The position numbers and the translations under genes were made by a program. Of a stretch of DNA of 63,069 nt, positions 3,905-55,217 are shown piece after piece. Each line of letters opens with the position of its first letter. Within the stretch, counting starts at the first letter, position 1. The notes beneath the pieces were generated by a model. The model saw only the letters and a list, made by a program, of their open reading frames with translations, had not been told where the DNA came from and did no database searches. Location of the stretch: the NCBI GenBank assembly GCA_019247695.1, contig JAFBAP010000070.1:1-63069 (forward strand), given 5' to 3'. The stretch is from Verrucomicrobiota bacterium. Lineage in GTDB: Bacteria > Verrucomicrobiota > Verrucomicrobiia > Chthoniobacterales > JAFAMB01.

Positions 3905-4110
3905 CCTATTGGGGTTGTAAGCCCAAACCCCCGAAAATTCCGCCATCCCAACTCCAGCCCCGCCACGATCGCATCCAGGTAGATGAGCTGTCCGTCACCA
4001 CGGAAGCGTAGTGCCCGTTCAGGTGGGCGTGGCGCCACGCCGCCGCCAGCTTCTTGACCAGCGCCAGGGGCTTTCGCGTTGCCGCTCGCCCCGGAGACCA
4101 GAAAAAACCG
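3905..4110 (-). pseudogene. Tn3-family transposase (tnpA) 3' end with terminal inverted repeat
   Basis: In shifting frames the minus strand reads SGNAKALALVKK, AAWRHAHLNGHY and LIYLDAIVAGLELG, which correspond to the extreme C-terminus of Tn3-family TnpA. At least two frameshifts are present, so this is a dead remnant. The outer edge, from 3911, reads GGGGTTGTAAGCCCAAAC on the plus strand; starting with GGGG is typical of Tn3-family terminal repeats. The same ~48 bp recurs at 16172-16219. The rest of the transposon is absent here. Confidence 0.6.
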
Positions 4111-15011: not shown

Positions 15012-15344
15012 GGGGTAGCGGGAGGGAAGCCGCGATAAGACCTCACAAGAGCCGGATGCCCCGGTCAGGGGGCAGCGGCGGGGCATGGGGGTCTTCTCGG
15101 AAAGGGTGGTTTTTAAGGACCGCAGCCGAATGCCGAAGGTCCACCTTGTCGCCTCGGGACGGCCATTCTCGAAATCCATTCTTGAAACCGTTTTCTTGGA
15201 ATGTCGCGCCCGAGCTGAGTTTCGAGAACCGCCATGCGGATCGGCTACGCCCAGGTATCCACCGATGAACAGCACTTGCAGCTGCCCCCTTACCGGGGAT
15301 CCGGCTCTTGTGAAGTCTTATCGCGGCTTCCCTCCCGCTACCCC
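15012..15344. mobile_element. 333-bp element with ~64-bp inverted ends (Tn3-derived, TIME-like)
   Basis: Positions 15012-15076 and 15281-15344 are inverted copies of each other with only a few differences. The outer end begins GGGGTAGCGGGAGGG, and the GGGG start is typical of Tn3-family ends. The 200-bp core contains the first 17 codons of a serine resolvase gene and, ahead of it, a stretch where a res site would be expected. This matches the idea of Tn3-derived inverted-repeat miniature elements. I see no matching 5-bp target duplication (CTTCT left, TGGAA right), so it may not be a simple insertion. Confidence 0.6.
15234..15284 (+). pseudogene. Serine resolvase (tnpR) N-terminal fragment
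   Basis: ATG 15234 starts MRIGYAQVSTDEQHLQL, the start of the resolvase/invertase family, whose catalytic Ser lies in the YAQVSTDEQ motif. The frame then runs into the right inverted repeat, so only the first 17 residues remain. No recombinase activity can remain. Confidence 0.65.
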
Positions 15345-15430: not shown

Positions 15431-15476
15431 GGGCCGTTTTAGTATTGATAACGCGCTTTATCAATACTAAACGGGC
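15431..15476. other. dif-like palindrome (13-bp arms, 6-bp centre)
   Basis: Perfect 13-bp arms TTAGTATTGATAA (15439-15451) and TTATCAATACTAA (15458-15470) flank the 6-bp centre CGCGCT. The symmetry extends imperfectly into GGCC-rich flanks. The inner ATAA-N6-TTAT layout is that of XerCD dif and related tyrosine-recombinase core sites. There is no T-tract after it, so a terminator is less likely. It lies among Tn3-family debris and toxin-antitoxin remnants, where mobile dif modules also occur. Confidence 0.5.
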
Positions 15477-15916
15477 CGCCTGCGACACCGTTTTAAATTT
15501 GTAAATGTGCCGGAAGGCCATTTCGCGCCGCACTGCAACTTGCTGCAAGGGAACCACTTAAGGAAACTTAGGGTCGGGCCGCTTCCGAGTAATTCCTTGA
15601 AGGGTTCGCCCCGGTGGCTGTGCCAACAGCGCAGCACTTCAACGATTCCTTCGGCTTCTTTGCGCAAGTAAAGGATGCGGTAGGAGCGTTTGAAGGCCGG
15701 GAGCTCTTGCACTTCGGGGTAAGCGGTGCGCCGCAGGTGGTGACCGCGGCGGACAACGCCCGGGTCGCTGAGCGGGCGGATCGCTTCGGCCGGAAGATCG
15801 TGCGCGTACTGTTCGCCGCGCTAGGGTTCACCCCGCCGGCTCCAGTAGGCGACGATTTTCTCGAGATCACCCCAGGCGCTTCGGGTGAAGACTACTCGGA
15901 GCCTCCTGGCGGCCAT
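15467..15916 (-). pseudogene. RelE/ParE-family toxin with internal stop
   Basis: From ATG 15916 the frame reads MAARRLRVVFTRSAWGDLEKIV and YWSRRGEP, then TAG at 15821-15823. It continues in the same frame with RGEQYAHDLPAEAI, VQELPAFKRSYRILYLR and VEVLRCWHSHR, the full length of a ParE/RelE-type toxin. The stop probably replaced a Trp codon (TGG to TAG). Only the last part has an open frame with a GTG start. The start overlaps the end of the antitoxin gene, the usual antitoxin-first order. Toxin activity is expected to be lost unless the stop is read through. Confidence 0.65.
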
Positions 15917-16171: not shown

Positions 16172-16425
16172 GGGGTTGTAAGCCCAAACCCCTGAAAATT
16201 CCGTCACCCCAACTCCAGCTCCGCTCGGCCATTGCCCAAGTCGGCGGCAAGAAGGAGCTGACCGGCAGGACCGACATCGAAATCGAGGTCAGCAACCCGT
16301 GCGCACGGCTGATCGCGAATGCGATCGTCTACTACCACGCCGCCATCCTGTCGCGGCTGCTCGCCAAATACGAGGCGAGCGGCAACGCGAAAGCCCTGGC
16401 GCTGATCAAGCAAGGCCTGATCATT
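16172..16425 (+). pseudogene. Tn3-family tnpA fragment next to an inverted copy of its own 3' end
   Basis: On the plus strand 16210-16421 encodes SAIAQVGGKKELTG, IEIEVSNPCARLIANAIVYYH and AILSRLLAKYEASG, a conserved C-terminal part of Tn3-family TnpA. Just before it, 16172-16219 carries the tnpA 3' end plus terminal repeat in the opposite orientation (minus strand ends ELELG, stop, then the GGGG-type end). In an intact gene the two parts are in the same orientation with more coding sequence between. An inversion or recombination between copies is the simplest explanation. The frame then runs into another transposase remnant. Confidence 0.65.
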
Positions 16426-23221: not shown

Positions 23222-23607
23222 TGATAGGGGACGCGCTCCCTCTTCCACCATTCAGACCGTTATTCCGGTAGAAGACCGGCTCAGGGGGGCGCCGGAGGAT
23301 GCTGCGCACCTTGTTGAACGGCTCTTACACCAATTCAGAGGGTTACCTTGGTGGAAGTTCAACCGGGTTTCAGCCCCGAAGGGGGGGCAGAACATAGCCC
23401 AGGGTTTACCCTGGGTAACCGTAAAATCACGATCGAGCCCTGAAGGGGCGGCAGAAGGCGTTGTCGGCAGGTTCTGCTGCCCCTTCAGGGCTCGATCGGG
23501 GGGAGGGGTGCGTTCCCAGGGTGGAACCCTGGGCTATGTTCTACCGGCCCGTTGGGCCTAAGACAACATTTTCGCTCGATGGTCATCGAAATGGTATGAT
23601 TGAGACT
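23222..23607. repeat. Composite intergenic repeat (modules C, P, B)
   Basis: Contains, in reverse order to the 36-kb copy, module C (reverse of the GGCGCC-rich block, around 23290), the palindrome P (about 23367-23562) and part of module B (to 23607). P has arms built on CATAGCCCAGGGTTTACCCTGGG and its complement near CCCTGGGCTATG, and GCCCTGAAGGGGCGGC in the inner part. Open frames in it are artefacts of the repeat. Confidence 0.75.
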
Positions 23608-23675
23608 TGATCGATACGATCAGGGTCATTTTTCCGCGGATTGTTCGGTGATTACATTTGTTAAAGCTCAATAAA

Positions 23676-23925
23676 TGCCCCGTCCAGGGACTGAAAGTCC
23701 CTGGCTAACCTCAGCCGTCCCTGCGGGACCAAAGCGCCCCCATCCAGCGGCCCTTAACTAAATGGCAGTGGGATAAAACCCGGGGCTAAGTTCCTTTGGC
23801 CCTTCAGGCCATCAAACCGCCTCCCGGCCCGTTGGGCCTATGCCGTTTATACGGTCTGATAGGTGTAACGCCGGCAGGGCACCTGGGAAGGAAGACATAA
23901 TTTACCTCCATGGAACTGCTGCAGC
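23676..23925. repeat. Second repeat block with module B and a GTCCAGGGACT hairpin unit
   Basis: The first ~110 bp (CGTCCAGGGACTGAAAGTCC through GCAGTGGGATAAAACC) recur almost unchanged at 46430-46543. They contain a small hairpin, CAGGGACTGAAAGTCCCTG. The end (23849-23920) is module B in reverse, with TACCTCCATGG at its edge. No gene is present. Confidence 0.7.
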
Positions 23926-28951: not shown

Positions 28952-29738
28952 CGCTAGTTCCTTCCCTATTTAATCGCTGGATGGCCCTGTGTCGATGTCG
29001 AATCCTCTTGAAGCGCCAATCTTATCCGTTCGGGCCATGCTACAGCCCGCAAAACGCGTGAGAGCAGCGCATCTCGGGGCCGGCGGCCTGCCGTATCCGG
29101 AGAGCGTTAAGACCATTTCGATGGCCATCGAGGTAAAATTTTTGTCTTAGGCCCGACGGGCCGGCAGACCTTAGCCCAGGGTTCCACCCCTGAGCTTTAC
29201 CCACATTGTTTGAGGGCAGCGCGGGGACAGCCGTGACCGTCTTTCGGCCCGAAAGGCCAAGAGAACTTAGCCCAAGGTTTACCCTGGGTAACCGTAAAAT
29301 CACGATCGAGCCCTGAAGGGGCGGCAGAACCCGACGGCAACGCTTTCTACCGCCCCTTCAGCAAATCCAACCCGGCGGGACGGGCGTTTGTTAGGGAGGG
29401 CGTACAGGCGTGACGCCTTAGGAGGGCTCGATCGTGATTTTACGGTTACCCAGGGTAAACCTTGGGCTAAGGTCTGCTGCCCCTTCGGGGCTGAAACCCG
29501 GTCGAAATTCCACCAAGACAACTGTCTGAACGGTGTAAGATCAATTCGACAAGGCGCGGAGCATCCGCCAGTACCCCCTCGCGCCCGAATTCTACCGAGA
29601 TAATTGTCTAAATGGTATGAGACAGGCTCCGCCCTGCGGGCGACTGCGCTGAGGTTAAGGCGTAGCCCTGAAGGCCCGGCACTCAACGGCCGCGGCCCGG
29701 GACGCCAGAACCCGCCCCGCCGCGCGGCAGCAGGCGGT
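28952..29738. repeat. Repeat-filled intergenic region (B, P-type palindrome, C modules)
   Basis: Module B lies around 29104-29150, an incomplete palindrome around 29150-29300, a second palindrome around 29250-29510 (GGTTTACCCTGGGTAACCGT on one side, ACGGTTACCCAGGGTAAACC on the other) and module C around 29540-29625. Between the arms of the second palindrome the loop is longer and differs from other copies. No gene is supported in the 787 bases. Confidence 0.7.
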
Positions 29739-35251: not shown

Positions 35252-35397
35252 CGTGAGAGGCACGCAGAACCGGGCAGGTTGCGTCGCGGTGCCGCGCAAC
35301 GATGGCGCGGCACGAGACGGCTGATTCTCTCCAAGCCCTCACGCGCGCCTTCGTCGAGCAACATAAAGGATATCGGGCCGGTAGGTTGAAATGCCTC

Positions 35398-35680
35398 AGG
35401 CCCAACGGGCCGGTAGAGCATAGCCCAGGGTTTACCCTGGGTAACCGTCAAAACACGATCAAGCCCTGAAGGGGCGGCAGAAAGCGTTGCTCACGGTTTC
35501 CGCCGCCCCTTCAGGGCTGGGTTGGGGGAAAAAGCCTTCCCAGGGTAAACCCTGGGCTAAGATCTTCCGGCCCGTTGGGCCTAGGATGACTATACGGTCT
35601 AGTGGGTTTAACGCCGGCAGGTAACCTGGGAAGGAAGACAAAATTTTACCTCCATGGCCGTCGAAGCGGTATTAAAGCCG
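35398..35680. repeat. Palindrome P (185 bp) plus reversed module B
   Basis: Positions 35398-35582 form a palindrome starting AGGCCCAACGGGCCGG and ending with its complement. Inside, GCCCTGAAGGGGCGGCAG pairs with GCCGCCCCTTCAGGGC. Module B follows in reverse (35583-35680), including AACGCCGGCAGG and TTTACCTCCATGG. Confidence 0.8.
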
Positions 35681-35984
35681 GCTCATAACGCTTCGAGGCC
35701 TCGCGATCCTTAACTCTAACGTTTCGGGGCTGCGGGCTTAATGGCCGGCCAAGGCCTTGGCGCCCATTGCGGGCGCTGTGAAGGTGAACCGCGCTGCGGT
35801 GAAGCGCCCAACCGCTTAGGCGTAACGGTCTGGCGGGCAATATCGGTTCGTCTCTGAGGGTTATCCCGGGGATAGCGTTCCATTTTTTCGATCCTTACCA
35901 TCGCTCGATTACACCATATTACACCATTACTGACGCAGCGCGGCCCTGGCCGTTACAGCGTCGAGCAGCTCTTTTGATCCGGGG
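35681..35984. other. Intergenic between two repeat copies
   Basis: About 300 bases. It holds no recognisable gene; a minor hairpin GCGCTGTGAAGG / AAGCGCCC and an ACACCATATTACACCAT short tandem (35912-35928) are visible. Confidence 0.35.
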
Positions 35985-36362
35985 CTAATACCATTTCGAC
36001 GGCCATGGAGGTAAAAAATGTTGTCTTCCTCCCCAGGTACCTTGTCGGCGTTGCACCTATTAAACCGTATGAACGGCCTAGGCCCAACGGGCCGGTAGAC
36101 CATAGCCCAGGGTTTACCCTGGGAAGGCGTTTCCCCACGACCCTGGCTTGAAGGGGCGGCGGAAACCGTGAGCAACGTCTTCTGCCGCCCTTTCAGGGCT
36201 CGATCGTAGTTTTACGGTTACCCAGGGTAAACCCTGGGCTAGGTTCTACCGGCCCGTTGGGCCTAAGGCATTTCAACTAAGTACGAAGCATCCTCCGGCG
36301 CCGACACCCCCCTGAGCCGGCATTCTGCCGAGATAAGATAAATGTCTGAACGGTATAAGGTC
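35985..36362. repeat. Complete composite repeat B-P-C (about 378 bp)
   Basis: Best-preserved copy. Module B (35985-36079) has ATACCATTTCGACGGCCATGG at its edge; palindrome P spans 36080-36264 (185 bp, with 44-bp near-perfect outer arms); module C (36265-36362) has the GCATCCTCCGGCGCCG block and ends near TGTCTGAACGGTATAAGG. B and C start and end with matching ACCATTTCGA / GGTATAAG-type edges. Confidence 0.8.
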
Positions 36363-40899: not shown

Positions 40900-40940
40900 C
40901 GGGTAACGGGTAACGGGTAACGGGTAACGGGTAACGGGTG
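40900..40940. repeat. Tandem heptamer (CGGGTAA)n
   Basis: About five and a half perfect copies of a 7-base unit in the intergenic space upstream of the SnoaL-like gene. Length change by slippage is likely. A different heptamer array lies at 61225. Confidence 0.85.
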
Positions 40941-41133
40941 CCGGGAACAACGTATCGCTGACTACAAAAAGGGAAGGTGTCCATCGCCCGGTAGTTAGAA
41001 AGCAAGGGCAGCAACGTACGCCATCCCAGGAACTGACGGCTGAAAGTGCGGCGCGGCCGGATCGCAAGTACAAAAACGCGCAACTGTATCCTTGGCAATC
41101 CCCCCTTTACTCGCGCGCGAAATTTCGGCTGGA
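40941..41133. other. Intergenic, no gene recognised
   Basis: Space between the heptamer array and the next composite repeat. Only short frames are seen and none carries start signals. Confidence 0.4.
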
Positions 41134-41335
41134 GCCCGTAATACCATTTCGAGGGCCATGGAGGTAAATTTTTTCTTCCTTCCCAGATGCCGTGCCGGTG
41201 TTACACCTATTAGACCGTATAAACGGTCCAGGCCCAACGGGCCGGGCATTTCCACCAACCAAGTACGGAGCATCCTGCGGCGCCGGCACCCCCCGTCGGC
41301 ATTCTATCGAGATAACCGTCTGAATGGTGTAAGAG
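41134..41335. repeat. Composite repeat with collapsed palindrome (B-p-C)
   Basis: Module B (41134-41228) and module C (about 41253-41335) are both recognisable, but between them only AGGCCCAACGGGCCGGGCATTTCC remains of palindrome P. This is the outcome expected if the palindrome was deleted by replication slippage. It shows that B and C are parts of the element and not of P. Confidence 0.7.
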
Positions 41336-46204: not shown

Positions 46205-46660
46205 TTTTACACCATTTCGACGGATACAGAGGTAAAACTACGTCTTCCTTCCCGGGCGCCCTGCCAGCGTTACCCCTATCCGACCGGGTCTCAGCCCCGA
46301 AGGGGCGGCAGAACATAGCCCAGGGTTTACCCTTGGTAACCGTAAAATGACGTGAGCCCTGAAGGGGCGGTAGAACCCGCGAGCAACGCCTTCCGCCGCC
46401 CCTTTCCCGACGGGACGCGATCGCTCTTAAACGCCCCGTCCAGGGACTAAAAGTCCCTGGCTAACCTCAGCCGGCCCTACGAGACGAAAGCGCCCCCATC
46501 CAGCGGCCCTTAACTAAATGGCAGTGGGCTAAACCCTGGGCTATGTTCTACCGGCCCGTTGGGCCCAAGGCATTTCAACCAAGTACGCAGCATCCTCCGG
46601 CGCCGACGCCCCCCGAGCCGACATTCTACCGAGATAAATGTGTCAATGGTATTACGCCGG
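46205..46660. repeat. Composite repeat with rearranged centre (B, part of P, hairpin unit, C)
   Basis: Module B at 46205-46283, half of palindrome P (GGTTTACCCTTGGTAACCGT and GAGCCCTGAAGGGGCGG) to about 46400, then the CGTCCAGGGACT hairpin unit (46430-46543) shared with 23676, the closing arm CTATGTTCTACCGGCCCGTT and module C (46565-46655). It is a mosaic of repeat modules. Confidence 0.7.
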
Positions 46661-50066: not shown

Positions 50067-53000
50067 ATGAAAACCATCCGGGTTTTTGTTTCCTCGCCAG
50101 GAGATGTCCAGGCGGAACGCACGATCGCGGACCGCCTGATCCGGATGACGGCCGAAGAACTGGGGATCCCGGTCAGTGTTCAATATTCGAACCTTCTCCG
50201 CGACGAACCGCTGCCGGCATCATCGAGCGATTCCAGCGAACCGGAATCGGGTGAGGTGATTCTTTGCCCCTACTTTTGGGAATACCAGCGATTTTCATTG
50301 GAACTCCCCTACCAGGACCAGATTCCCAATACGGCTCAGTTCGACCTGGTGATTTGTATCCTGTGGTCGCGCCTCGGAACGAAGTTGCATCCCCGCTTCA
50401 GGATGCCGGACGGGAGTGAGCCTCAGTCCGGGACGGATTACGAGGTTGCCTGGGCACAGGCGCAACGCAAGAAAACGCCCGGCATTCCGGCACTGCACGT
50501 CTACCGCAACCGGAGCCAGCCTAACCCGCCCCTCGAGCCGCCGGAAAAACTTGAAGAATTTCTCCGGCAATGGAAGGCGCTCCAGGCATTCTTTGCGGCT
50601 CTCCTGAAAGATAGTGAAGGCCAGTACATTGGTGCGTTCAATAACTACCGGAGTCTTGAGCAGTTTGAGCAGCTCTTTCGCGAGCATTTCCGGGATTTTC
50701 TCTCCACTCAGCTTTCCGGTGAGCGCCGGCGCCAGCTGGTGGGCGGCCGCGGCCAGGTACGGCGCTGGAAACATAACCCGTTCCGCGGCCTGCAGTTTTT
50801 CGATTTCGAACACGCGCCGATCTTTCACGGCAGAACCAAAGCCATCGGGGAAGTCTTGGAGGCCTTGGAAGAGCAAGCCAGGATGCAACGGCCGTTTGTG
50901 CTCATCGTGGGTGCCAGCGGTTCGGGCAAGAGCTCGCTGGCGTGCGCGGGCGTGCTTCCGTTGTTGACGCAACCCGAAACGATTGAAGGAATCGGATTCT
51001 GGCGCCGCGCCATCACCAGACCCGGAGCGGGCGGAGGCGACGGGGATTGTTTCGATGCGCTGGCGGCCGCGCTGCTGGAAGCCCCTGCGCTGCCGGCCTT
51101 GGAGGATCCGGAATCGCCGAACGCAGTCCGTGATCTGGCGGCCGAACTGAGGCAACACTCCGGCACCGTCGCATTCCGGGTCCGGGACGCGCTCGACCAC
51201 GCTGCGCGGGAGTGGAAAATCCAGCAGTGCCATTCCCTGGAGGAACGAGAGCGGCAACTGCGGGCCGCAGGCCGGTCTGCCGACGCGGAGCTGGCCCGGC
51301 AGCAGAGGGAGGGGCTCGAACTGCCGAAAGCCCGATTGGCATTGGTGGTTGACCAGTTCGAGGAGTTGTTCACGACCGGCTTTTCACCGGAGGTTCGGCA
51401 GGGCTATATCTCCGCGCTTGCCGGTTTGGCGCACGGTGGCCGGGTCTTTGTCCTGGCGACGTTACGGAGTGATTTTTACCCCTTCTATCAGCAATTCCCG
51501 GAACTGATCGAGCTTACTCGTCCGCGTGGGAAAGTCGACCTGCGGCCCCCTGCGGCATACGAGATCGGGAACATGATCCGGCTGCCGGCCGAAGCAGCCG
51601 GCCTGCGCTTCGAACCGGAGCCGGCCACCGGCCAATACCTGGATCAAGCACTTTGCGACGCCGCTTCGGCGACTCCGGAATCCTTGCCCCTGCTCGAGCA
51701 CGTTTTATCACTGCTGTACGACGCGCAGGCGGCTCGCAGCGACGGGTTGCTCCGGTGGTCGGACTACCGCGGACTGGGGGAATTAAAAGGCGCGCTCGCC
51801 AAGCATGCCGAAGCGGTATTCCTCACGCTGCAACCGCATGAGCAAAGGGCGTTTCCGTTGGCGATGCGGTACCTGGTCACGCTGGGTCAGGGCGAGGAAG
51901 AGGTGCCCAACCGCCGGACGGTACCTTACCGTGATTTCGTCACCGCGGAGGGCATGGGCCAGGATCAGAATGCCGGTGCGAAGGGCTTCATCGACCTGTT
52001 CATCAAGGAACGGCTGTTGGTCGCCGACACCGACCCCCAAGGCGAGGTCACCGTAAGCGTCGCGCACGAGGCGCTGCTCCGGGAATGGCAGCGCGTGAAA
52101 GAATGGCTGGCCGAAAACCGCGAGTTCCTGCGCATGCGGGACCGCCTGGATGCGAGCCTCAAGCTTTGGCTGAGCCGCGGCAAACAGCGGGACGACCTGC
52201 TCGGACCGGGACTACCCCTGGCGGAAGGCGAAAAGCTCCTCAAAGATTTCAAACCGTCGCTCAGCCGGGCACAAGTCGATTACGTCGCGGCAAGTCTTGC
52301 GGAGCGGCGACGGCGCAAACACGTCCAGGAGCGGATTCGTTACGCGGTGATGGCGGCGATCACCGGGCTTGCGATCGTCGCCGGCGTTCAATGGCTCCGG
52401 GCTGAGCGCCAGCGCCGGAGTGCGGCGCTGGCGTTTGCATCGGAAGCACAGATTGCGGTGAAGCTGAAGGAGCAGCTGCGGCAGGCCAGCTGGGCAAGCT
52501 TCAATCAGGCCGAGCGCCAGTTTCAAATGGGCGAGTGGCAGGAAGCCATCGCCTCTCTCGCGCGTGCGATCAGGTTCGACCCGGCGAATCAAGTGGCTTC
52601 CGAACGCTTCTTCCACGAGTTGATCATTCACCGTGAGAACGCGCTTCCCCGGCTCACCACCGCCTTTACCCATCAGGAAGTGATCATCGCCGCAGCGTTC
52701 AGTCCCGACGGCACACGCGTCCTGACGGCGAGCTGGGACAAGACCGCCAAGCTCTGGGACGCGGCTTCGGGCAAGCTCCTCGCCGCCTTCGCCCACCAGA
52801 ATGCAGTTAATGCCGCGGCGTTCAGCCCCGACGGTACCCGGATCCTGACGGCCAGCGCGGACAAAACCGCCCAACTCCGGGACGCGGCTTCGGGCAAGGT
52901 GCTCGCCTCGTTTACCCACCAGGGTACGGTTAATGCCGTGGCGTTTAGTCCCGACGGCACGCGGGTGCTGACGGCCAGCGCGGACAAAACCGCCAAACTC

Positions 53001-55217
53001 TGGGACGCAGCCTCAGGCAGGCTCCTCGCTTCCTTTACTCACCAGGATGAAACGAACGAGGCGGTGTTTAGTCCCGACGGCACGCGCGTTCTGACGGCCA
53101 GCGCGGATAAGACCGCCAAATTCTGGGACGCGGCTTCGGGCGAGATGCTCGCCTCGCTTGTTCATCAGGGAGCCGTCTACCATGCAGCCTTCAGCCCGGA
53201 CGGTTCACGGATCCTGACTGCCAGCAGAGACAAAACGGCCCGGCTCTGGGATGCGCCATCGGGAAAACCGCTGGCGACCTTTACGCATGACCAGGCAGTG
53301 TACAACGCAGCGTTCAGCCCGGACGGCACGCGGGTCCTGACGTCCAGTTGGGACAAAACGGCCAAGCTTTGGGAAGCGGGCTCAGGCAAGCTCCTGGCTT
53401 CCTTTGCCCACCAGGATGTAGTCGCATCCGGGGCGTTCAGCCGCGACGGCACGCGGGTCCTGACGGCGAGCTGGGACAAAACGGCCAAGCTCTGGGAAGC
53501 GGGCTCAGGCAAGCTGCTCGCAACCTTCACTCACCAGGACGCCGTAAGCACCGTGGCGTTCAGTTCTGACGGTACTCGAATCCTGACCGCGAGCTGGGAT
53601 AAAACCGCCAAGGTCTGGGAAGCGGCCTCAGGTGGGTTCAGCGCCTCGTTTGACCATCAGGACGTCGTTAACGACGCAACGTTTAGTCCCGATGGCACCC
53701 GGGTGCTGACGGCAGGCGCAGATCACCGGGCCAGACTCTGGGATACAGGCTCCGGTAAACTGCTGACTTCATTTGCTCACCAGGACGGAGTCAATGCCGT
53801 GGCGTTCAGCCAGGACGGCACACGGATGCTGACGGCCAGCGCGGATAGAACCGCCAAGCTCTGGGACAGTGCGTCGGGTAAACTTCTCACCTCCGTTGAG
53901 CACCAGGATGCGGTAAATACCGCGGCGTTGAGTCCCGATGGCGCCCGCATCCTCACGGCCAGCGCGGACAAAACCGCTAAACTCTGGGACGCGATTTCAG
54001 GCAAACTCCTCACCGTCTTTGAGCATCAGGACGCGGTAAATACCGCGGTTTTCAGTCCCGACGGTACACGGATTCTCACGGCCGGCGCCGATAAAGCCGC
54101 AAGGCTCTGGGAGGCCGCCTCCGGCAAACCCCTCACCTCCTTTACCCATCAGGGTACGGTCAACACCGCTGCGTTCAGCCCGGACGGCGCCCGCGTCCTG
54201 ACGGCCGGCGCAGACCATCGTGCCCGGCTCTGGGAAGCGGCTTCGGGCAAACTCCTCGCCACCTTTACCCATCAGGATGAGGTCAGCGAGGCGGTCTTCA
54301 GTGCCGACGGCACGCGGATCCTGACAGCCGGCGCAGACCACACAGCCAAGCTCTGGGAGGCCCCTTCCGGCAAGCTCCTGGCGTCTTTCGATCATCAAGC
54401 GAATGTGTACCATGGAGCATTCAGTCCGGATGGCGCCCGGATTCTGACGTCCGGCGCAGATAACCGCGCCAACCTTTGGGACGCGGCGTCAGGCAAGCGG
54501 CTTGCCTCCTTCGTTCATCAGGATGCGGTCCGATGGGCTGCTTTTAGTCCGGACGGGACCCGGGTCCTGACGGCGAGCTGGGACAAGACCGTCAAGCTTT
54601 GGGACGTGGCTACCCCGGCCGAACTCGCTCGACAGGTAAAAGCATTGCCTGGCTCGATGTCCGGTACCGATCTGCTGCAAGTCGAAGCGCTCTCGGCGAT
54701 CGCAAGCGGACTCCGATTTTCAGACGATGGCTCGCTCGTTACGGTCGATGAGGAATCCAGATCTCAATGGACGAACCAGCTCAACGACTCGGCGCGGGAC
54801 CTCCGTCCGGGAACCCGCTTTATACGTTGGTTCTTTAGCGCCGGAACCGATCGAACCATCTTTCCCGCCAGCGATGTCACGATCGTTGAATGGGTGGATA
54901 ACGTGCTCCTGACAAATCCGAGCATCGCCGACGAATCTATGCGGAACGCGTTGGCCTTCCGTCCCGATCACCCCTTGCTTCACATTGCGCTGGCCGGGAC
55001 TGAGACTGACTCCAAGCGCTCCGACTTCCTTCGCTCATTCGGTCTGGCGCACCTCCCGAAAAACAGCGTTATCTGCACGCGCGCGGCTGAGATGCTGCTG
55101 GCGCAACATCGGCCCGATCTCGCCCTGGTGGCGGTTGATCACGCGCTTCTCGCCAGCCCGGCGGACCTGACCGCCAGGCAAGTTCGATCGAAAATCCTGG
55201 AGGCGATACCTCGATGA
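50067..55217 (+). CDS. DUF4062-STAND NTPase-WD40 protein
   Basis: About 1716 residues. N-terminus: DUF4062-like (IRVFVSSPGDVQAERTIAD), a domain linked to TIR-like or conflict proteins. Then a STAND-type NTPase: NPFRGLQFFDFEHAPIFHGR entry, Walker A GASGSGKSSLA (near residue 283) and Walker B ALVVDQFEELFTTG (near 425). A single membrane helix (AVMAAITGLAIVAGVQWL, near 758) is followed by 16 WD40 repeats of exactly 41 residues (866-1521). A 195-residue C-terminal region has TPR-like helices. STAND proteins sense a ligand through the repeat domain and oligomerise. ATG 50067 fits the usual DUF4062 start; ATG 50031 and the frame start 50016 are alternatives. No effector domain such as a nuclease is visible, so the effector role may lie in the N-terminus or a partner. 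Confidence 0.88.
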   Translation: MKTIRVFVSSPGDVQAERTIADRLIRMTAEELGIPVSVQYSNLLRDEPLPASSSDSSEPESGEVILCPYFWEYQRFSLELPYQDQIPNTAQFDLVICILWSRLGTKLHPRFRMPDGSEPQSGTDYEVAWAQAQRKKTPGIPALHVYRNRSQPNPPLEPPEKLEEFLRQWKALQAFFAALLKDSEGQYIGAFNNYRSLEQFEQLFREHFRDFLSTQLSGERRRQLVGGRGQVRRWKHNPFRGLQFFDFEHAPIFHGRTKAIGEVLEALEEQARMQRPFVLIVGASGSGKSSLACAGVLPLLTQPETIEGIGFWRRAITRPGAGGGDGDCFDALAAALLEAPALPALEDPESPNAVRDLAAELRQHSGTVAFRVRDALDHAAREWKIQQCHSLEERERQLRAAGRSADAELARQQREGLELPKARLALVVDQFEELFTTGFSPEVRQGYISALAGLAHGGRVFVLATLRSDFYPFYQQFPELIELTRPRGKVDLRPPAAYEIGNMIRLPAEAAGLRFEPEPATGQYLDQALCDAASATPESLPLLEHVLSLLYDAQAARSDGLLRWSDYRGLGELKGALAKHAEAVFLTLQPHEQRAFPLAMRYLVTLGQGEEEVPNRRTVPYRDFVTAEGMGQDQNAGAKGFIDLFIKERLLVADTDPQGEVTVSVAHEALLREWQRVKEWLAENREFLRMRDRLDASLKLWLSRGKQRDDLLGPGLPLAEGEKLLKDFKPSLSRAQVDYVAASLAERRRRKHVQERIRYAVMAAITGLAIVAGVQWLRAERQRRSAALAFASEAQIAVKLKEQLRQASWASFNQAERQFQMGEWQEAIASLARAIRFDPANQVASERFFHELIIHRENALPRLTTAFTHQEVIIAAAFSPDGTRVLTASWDKTAKLWDAASGKLLAAFAHQNAVNAAAFSPDGTRILTASADKTAQLRDAASGKVLASFTHQGTVNAVAFSPDGTRVLTASADKTAKLWDAASGRLLASFTHQDETNEAVFSPDGTRVLTASADKTAKFWDAASGEMLASLVHQGAVYHAAFSPDGSRILTASRDKTARLWDAPSGKPLATFTHDQAVYNAAFSPDGTRVLTSSWDKTAKLWEAGSGKLLASFAHQDVVASGAFSRDGTRVLTASWDKTAKLWEAGSGKLLATFTHQDAVSTVAFSSDGTRILTASWDKTAKVWEAASGGFSASFDHQDVVNDATFSPDGTRVLTAGADHRARLWDTGSGKLLTSFAHQDGVNAVAFSQDGTRMLTASADRTAKLWDSASGKLLTSVEHQDAVNTAALSPDGARILTASADKTAKLWDAISGKLLTVFEHQDAVNTAVFSPDGTRILTAGADKAARLWEAASGKPLTSFTHQGTVNTAAFSPDGARVLTAGADHRARLWEAASGKLLATFTHQDEVSEAVFSADGTRILTAGADHTAKLWEAPSGKLLASFDHQANVYHGAFSPDGARILTSGADNRANLWDAASGKRLASFVHQDAVRWAAFSPDGTRVLTASWDKTVKLWDVATPAELARQVKALPGSMSGTDLLQVEALSAIASGLRFSDDGSLVTVDEESRSQWTNQLNDSARDLRPGTRFIRWFFSAGTDRTIFPASDVTIVEWVDNVLLTNPSIADESMRNALAFRPDHPLLHIALAGTETDSKRSDFLRSFGLAHLPKNSVICTRAAEMLLAQHRPDLALVAVDHALLASPADLTARQVRSKILEAIPR
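52665..54632 (+). repeat. Tandem 123-bp repeat encoding 16 WD40 units
   Basis: Sixteen units of exactly 41 codons follow one another without gaps. Most read F-x-HQ-x-xV-xx-AAFSPDGTRVLTAS-x-DKTAKLWD-AASGKLLAS. Differences concentrate around the residues after HQ and around the WD and ADH/WDK positions. Units 11 and 12 (from about 53895) share long stretches. The even length and high similarity suggest amplification and homogenisation. Confidence 0.92.

Follow-up and report, generated by a model that had tools for sequence, protein, structure and literature searches.

A palindromic intergenic repeat of a Verrucomicrobiota genome as a probable tnpA-less derivative of a Y1 transposase unit with Acido-Lenti-1 ends

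We analysed a stretch of 63,069 nucleotides from a Verrucomicrobiota bacterium (contig JAFBAP010000070.1 of assembly GCA_019247695.1, hereafter the window) and found that its repeated palindrome, here named P, probably derives from a transposase unit of the single-domain Y1/HUH kind, having lost tnpA and with it its autonomy; its ends belong to the Rfam family Acido-Lenti-1, and it is carried for the most part by a MITE. Two copies of P had been noted in an earlier sequence-only reading of the window, and both their coordinates and their common length of 185 bp were confirmed by reading the sequence and by self-comparison. The copies and the hairpins of copy 1 are as follows.

35398-35582, no strand: palindrome P, copy 1, with the layout HP1-HP2-HP3 / HP3'-HP2'-HP1', a tnpA-less core
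36080-36264, no strand: palindrome P, copy 2, inverted relative to copy 1
35399-35411, no strand: HP1 of copy 1 (GGCCCAACGGGCC), partner HP1' at 35569-35581; the helix covaries across relatives
35424-35441, no strand: HP2 of copy 1 (CCCAGGGTTTACCCTGGG), partner HP2' at 35539-35556; the helix covaries across relatives
35463-35475, no strand: HP3 of copy 1 (GCCCTGAAGGGGC), partner HP3' at 35505-35517

Copy 1 and copy 2 share 90% identity when compared as inverted repeats and 78% as direct repeats. The arms of P align with each other, and the description of these arms as near-perfect was overstated, their ungapped complementarity being 78-80%. A single strand of P is predicted to fold into one long nested hairpin, with -86.4 kcal/mol as DNA (z -14.0 vs shuffles) and -146.8 kcal/mol as RNA (z -14.6 vs shuffles), far better than the shuffled controls, which excludes a chance origin of the fold. 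P is also not confined to the window, a possibility that the sequence-only reading had left to be checked: a genome search returned matches of at least 110 bp at 40 or more places on 28 contigs, at least 25 of them being 170 bp or longer, and these genome-wide counts are lower bounds, given the limited number of candidates scored.

Both ends of P match Acido-Lenti-1 (RF01687) over the whole length of the model and face outward. The mobile, palindromic character of the element had been recognized earlier, while the identity of its ends with a known Rfam motif had been missed. The motif consists of the hairpin HP2, followed by a linker beginning with CTA and then by the smaller hairpin HP1, and its presence at each end gives P its layout. 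Using the covariance model, we detected 10 RF01687 matches of at least 35 bits in the window, 6 of these at or above the curated cut-off (37), and at least 106 in the genome, where the best 150 of 2028 candidates were scored. A further model, R2, was built on 10 motif copies from this genome and its relatives (6 dispersed copies and 4 from the flanks of tnpA genes), and its scores are added below for the two ends that fall under the cut-off.

35398-35441, minus strand: Acido-Lenti-1, left end of P copy 1; 36.8 bits, just under the cut-off of 37 (R2, 44.9 bits)
35539-35582, plus strand: Acido-Lenti-1, right end of P copy 1; 39.0 bits
36080-36123, minus strand: Acido-Lenti-1, left end of P copy 2; 37.0 bits
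36221-36264, plus strand: Acido-Lenti-1, right end of P copy 2; 35.2 bits, under the cut-off (R2, 42.3 bits)

A second Acido-Lenti-1 subtype, with other stem sequences, is found in the window at 23684-23730 (CCAGGGACTGAAAGTCCCTGG with GTCCCTGCGGGAC at 23684) and at 46440-46486, and these differing stems indicate that the genome holds more than one variant of the motif.

The genome carries two Y1 transposase genes, and the one on contig C153 has inverted Acido-Lenti-1 motifs on both sides. The sequence-only reading had reported no transposase nearby; a Y1/HUH TnpA gene does exist, but on this other contig. The C153 protein is about 150 aa long, shows the motifs DHVH, WQ and Y---Q--HH with intact catalytic residues, and by the published motifs and length (~148 aa) is assigned to TnpA subclass 1.2. 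The earlier guess of a Y1/RAYT-type transposase was therefore right as to the Y1 gene and wrong as to its kind, subclass 1.2 not being a classical RAYT subclass. The predicted structure of the protein (mean pLDDT 88.8) matches the TnpA of ISDra2 and IS608, with the E. coli RAYT lower in the list. This gene is the one intact subclass 1.2 tnpA of the genome, which holds fragments in addition. The other Y1 gene, an IS200-like gene on C19, was considered as a partner of P and rejected, no motif flanking it.

The full tnpA unit has the layout HP1-HP2-HP3-tnpA-HP3'-HP2'-HP1', and each half of P copy 1 aligns with one end of the C153 unit, at 82% and 74% identity. A hairpin equivalent to HP3 adjoins tnpA in C153 and in other genomes. 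Moreover, contig C176 retains both extremities of such a tnpA between the same ends, most of the gene being deleted, and C93 holds a more truncated tnpA piece; judging by sequence, both resemble stages on the way from the full unit to P. In a relative, G022, we observed 26 tnpA matches, mostly short or broken, together with few Acido-Lenti-1 matches, a decaying gene population.

The association between the motif and this kind of tnpA extends across phyla. With a profile search we identified 80 loci whose products are relatives of the C153 TnpA, in Verrucomicrobiota, Planctomycetota, Acidobacteriota, Bacteroidota, Armatimonadota and others, and R2 was scanned over 79 of them (L072, which coincides with the locus of G071, a relative from the family of the window genome, was left out). 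A match within 250 bp of the gene was found at 65 of the 79 loci, and most of the other 14 have inverted HP1-HP2-HP3 ends with other loop lengths. R2 matches typically lie 45-90 bp from tnpA, at 16 times the density of more distant DNA, and 83 of the 107 located within 150 bp have the expected, inverted orientation. On 27 loci (26 distinct genes) of other Y1 subclasses from this genome and its relatives, R2 gave no match (0/27, E up to 1). Among the order relatives searched for both motif and gene, four or more motif matches were present in 16 of 17 with tnpA vs 1 of 21 without, and 1-5 matches were counted in seven relatives in which no tnpA was detected. Likewise, the motif occurs in 35 of 40 tnpA-bearing genomes vs none of 14 control genomes. 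Many matches form inverted pairs, either ~150 bp or ~610-650 bp apart, and the three pairs of the wider spacing that were read (C165 of G140, C65 and C112 of G147) all enclose tnpA. Plasmid records yielded one further motif-flanked tnpA (Persicobacter, L299), and no motif match at a Bernardetia locus nor at a TnpB-linked cyanobacterial locus.

Both helices of the motif covary strongly, with changes on both sides in 9 of 13 pairs and a covariation score of 0.713, vs 0.263 after shuffling and at most 0.097 when slid. A functional RNA normally tolerates G-U pairs. In 2014 cells of the stems taken from other genomes, G-T/T-G make up 0.7% and A-C/C-A 1.8%, and this scarcity of G-U, which is not in excess over A-C, agrees with selection on DNA hairpins. 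The composition of the stems hence points to DNA hairpins rather than RNA, and the Acido-Lenti-1 ends of P are probably not a small RNA.

The opposite view, that Acido-Lenti-1 and hence P is a structured small RNA lying near a transposase incidentally, has the curation of RF01687 as an sRNA in Rfam behind it, as well as the table of the 2010 discovery paper, which lists Acido-Lenti-1 as a probable RNA (PMC2864571). P folds well as RNA also, and a 2026 paper (PMC13298647), which calls the function of the family little known, suggests a regulation of proteases and proposes as regulators the copies found downstream of protease genes in Tannerella forsythia. Such an RNA would not be expected to flank a single tnpA subclass in inverted pairs in many phyla, and no other Y1 subclass, to occur in most of its dispersed copies as inverted pairs, and to be nearly devoid of G-U pairs, and we therefore hold this view to be very improbable. 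Another explanation would make P a hairpin useful to the host, such as a transcription terminator, an mRNA stabiliser or a nucleoid site, and retained for that use, as its intergenic position and very stable fold might suggest. The congener G047 shares with the window the syntenic genes around 28-29, 32.7-35.3 and 36.4-37.5 kb (83-88% identity), and we found no credible motif match in the syntenic stretch, so that P was either gained here or lost in G047; the insertion point of copy 2 could not be read from this alignment, the intergenic DNA being too diverged at the junction. This absence, together with the frequently broken, nested or collapsed state of P copies, leaves a host function with hardly any credibility as the reason for the presence of P.

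P is itself embedded in a second element. Most P copies examined lie between two modules, B and C, which the sequence-only reading had described beside P in several places without recognizing that they are the arms of a separate MITE. The related B/P/C units that it listed at 23, 29, 36, 41 and 46 kb are real (23.2-23.9, 29.1-29.5, 35.4-36.4, 41.1-41.3 and 46.2-46.65 kb), and so is the collapse of P at 41.2 kb, where B is joined to C with one small hairpin remaining. The outer ends of B and C are inverted repeats (TACCATTTCGACGG... and TACCATTCAGACAATTATCTCGG...), and the units of the window are the following.

35583-35671, minus strand: B arm belonging to the unit with P copy 1, an inverted repeat with 36015-36277; end TACCGCTTCGACGG at 35671
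~35384-35397: arm C of the unit around P copy 1, truncated, on the other side of P
35989-36355, plus strand: complete B-P-C MITE with P copy 2, its B arm spanning 35989-36079 and its C arm 36265-36355
35986-35988 and 36356-36358: TAA flanks of the MITE with P copy 2, a duplication read by eye
41142-41329, plus strand: collapsed unit of arms B and C, where a single HP1 (GGCCCAACGGGCC) is all that remains of P; TAA at each flank
46210-46651, plus strand: B-P-C unit flanked by TTA at both ends, its P being rearranged; it contains Acido-Lenti-1 at 46293-46336 (minus strand)
29111-29535, no strand: MITE unit flanked by TAA at both ends, its P broken in HP3; it contains Acido-Lenti-1 at 29149-29194 (minus strand) and 29449-29492 (plus strand)
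23372-23559, no strand: P copy with short arms, itself nested within a B...C composite of greater length (~23245-23913); this P is 82% identical to P copy 1
23515-23559, plus strand: Acido-Lenti-1 of the 23-kb P copy; 40.9 bits

Inside HP3 of the 29-kb copy, at ~29290-29352, lies an insert of ~63 bp, reading CCTAAGGCGTCACGCC...GGTTGGATTTGCT in one orientation or the other. It represents one more small repeat nested in the element, and it occupies the same place in L150, L151, L271, L273 and L276.

Genome-wide, 33 distinct complete B-P-C units with terminal inverted repeats were identified, as is typical of a MITE. Identical 3-bp flanks, nearly all of them TNA, border 12 of the 33, vs 0-1 at shifted positions. 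As TNA is itself a consensus, a stricter test was needed, and where TNA stands on both sides the two flanks are equal in 11 of 21 units (expected ~27%, p ~0.01), a modest excess. On these sequence features we read B-P-C as a MITE with a 3-bp TNA target duplication. Such a TNA duplication pattern belongs to some IS5-family groups. For an autonomous partner of the MITE, the search covered PF01609, and none of its 6 matches is bounded by these ends. At position ~156 of L305 (C170), a MITE end of the B type immediately adjoins a fragment of DDE_Tnp_1 that lies outside the MITE; this is probably an insertion beside DDE_Tnp_1 rather than an autonomous partner.

Arms of the B/C type are also present on the C176 unit and on one side of the C153 unit. 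Five B-C copies lack P (the one at 41.2 kb and four elsewhere), and each retains one HP1 remnant; their junctions differ, suggesting independent collapses of the palindrome. The same composite plan was found with unrelated arms in a Deltaproteobacteria MAG (TAGAGCA ends) and in an uncultured bacterium (AGGGCGTGTTGCCC ends, with ~4-bp duplications read by eye), and the tnpA units read in these two genomes (G140 and G147) end at HP1 and carry no MITE arms.

By analogy with IS608, ISDra2 and the E. coli TnpAREP, we infer that TnpA would bind the ends as single-stranded DNA hairpins and cut and rejoin them in trans, probably when the DNA is single-stranded at replication. A DDE-type transposase would move B-P-C as a whole, and the present copy number of P probably owes much to it, most copies lying inside the TIR-bounded MITE. 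The long palindrome would then decay by internal deletion until one HP1 is left. As the homology among P copies extends beyond HP1 into the MITE arms, the ends used by TnpA are putative. It may be asked, in this respect, whether the B-C MITE, moved by a DDE transposase, is the sole vehicle by which P spreads, TnpA being a relic without a current role here. The location of most examined P copies between B and C, the TNA duplications enclosing the whole unit, the single intact subclass 1.2 tnpA on another contig and the recurrence of the composite plan with other arms in two more genomes all agree with this explanation. It accounts poorly, in turn, for tnpA units that end at HP1 without arms in G140 and G147, for the intact catalytic residues and for a motif that tracks tnpA across phyla, and the PF01609 search gave it no DDE partner; we consider it unlikely, and prefer a TnpA-derived P that the MITE now carries.

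Several known systems share features with P. As in REPtrons, the REP/BIME (REPIN)-RAYT systems, a Y1 tnpA stands between inverted hairpins, and the same repeats are dispersed in high copy number, intergenic and often in inverted pairs. Unlike in REPtrons, the motif has two hairpins, the GT[AG]G foot is lacking as a conserved feature (many copies here have GTAG in their linker, which relatives do not conserve), and TnpA has Y---Q--HH, outside class 2 (Y..NP). For want of this foot and of a class 2 TnpA, we keep the P system apart from the REPIN/REPtron, although by analogy it may work like one. Subclass 1.2 has been reported without REP and mostly from cyanobacteria and Bacteroidetes (Quentin et al. 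2018, PMC6006769), the absence of REP being a reported trait and not a definition. The TnpA described here shares with it DH[VI]H, WQ, Y---Q--HH, a length of ~150 aa and a low copy number, and differs from that account by its inverted Acido-Lenti-1 flanks (65/79 loci) and its occurrence in many phyla. The same study describes class 3 tnpA genes accompanied by atypical hairpins with CnGA at the foot, ~600 in Solibacter. They recall our case by the high-copy hairpins beside tnpA and by a stretch resembling CnGA that several copies here have in the linker joining HP1 to HP2. Membership in class 3 was rejected, class 3 having Y----Q and TnpA here Y---Q--HH. TIRYT/TIRtrons, described in 2013 (PMC3733652), are Y1 genes between inverted repeats, some self-complementary and some acidobacterial, and resemble the present units in these inverted flanks as compared by description. 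On descriptions only, class 3 hairpins and TIRYT TIRs may overlap with the Acido-Lenti-1 family, and part of the motif-transposase association may thus have been glimpsed earlier without the Rfam link. With IS200/IS605 elements such as IS608 and ISDra2, the system shares the HUH/Y1 fold and the hairpin ends; these have several near-identical full tnpA copies, whereas here one tnpA is intact and most dispersed copies are gene-less.

Acido-Lenti-1 itself is an sRNA in Rfam (RF01687; Weinberg et al. 2010, PMC2864571), and here it appears as DNA, paired at the ends of a tnpA unit and of the derivatives that have lost the gene. In the literature naming the family that our search reached, which left most subscription journals outside, we found no link to a transposase. 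We lean towards a wider reading, in which the Acido-Lenti-1 family would comprise not RNAs but DNA ends, those of a REPtron-like system of pan-phylum range with TnpA subclass 1.2 and six hairpins, whose gene-less palindromes would have been adopted repeatedly as cores of unrelated TIR-type MITEs (three genomes), so that two transposition systems would act on one element. This would assign to an Rfam family of little-known role a function that is concrete and testable, and would supply the missing partner sequences of a transposase subclass described without any. The sRNA labels given by annotation pipelines would be mislabelled transposon ends, proposals of neighbour-gene regulation by Acido-Lenti-1 would need rethinking, and the Tannerella forsythia copies may, given the present findings, be transposon ends. 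The recurrent nesting in other MITEs raises a new question on how palindromes spread.

Other repeats were observed in the window. A short tandem GGGTAAC array lies at ~40901-40942, and similar short matches are scattered in the congener G047. A long array of diverged direct repeats (52652-54611) has a spacing of ~123 bp, corresponding to ~41 residues if coding, and an identity of 70-72%. A 68-bp inverted repeat (94%) is present at 15012-15344 and a separate 46-bp palindrome at 15432-15477, and two related repeat stretches, at 3911-4093 and 16172-16410, are 92-93% identical in pieces.
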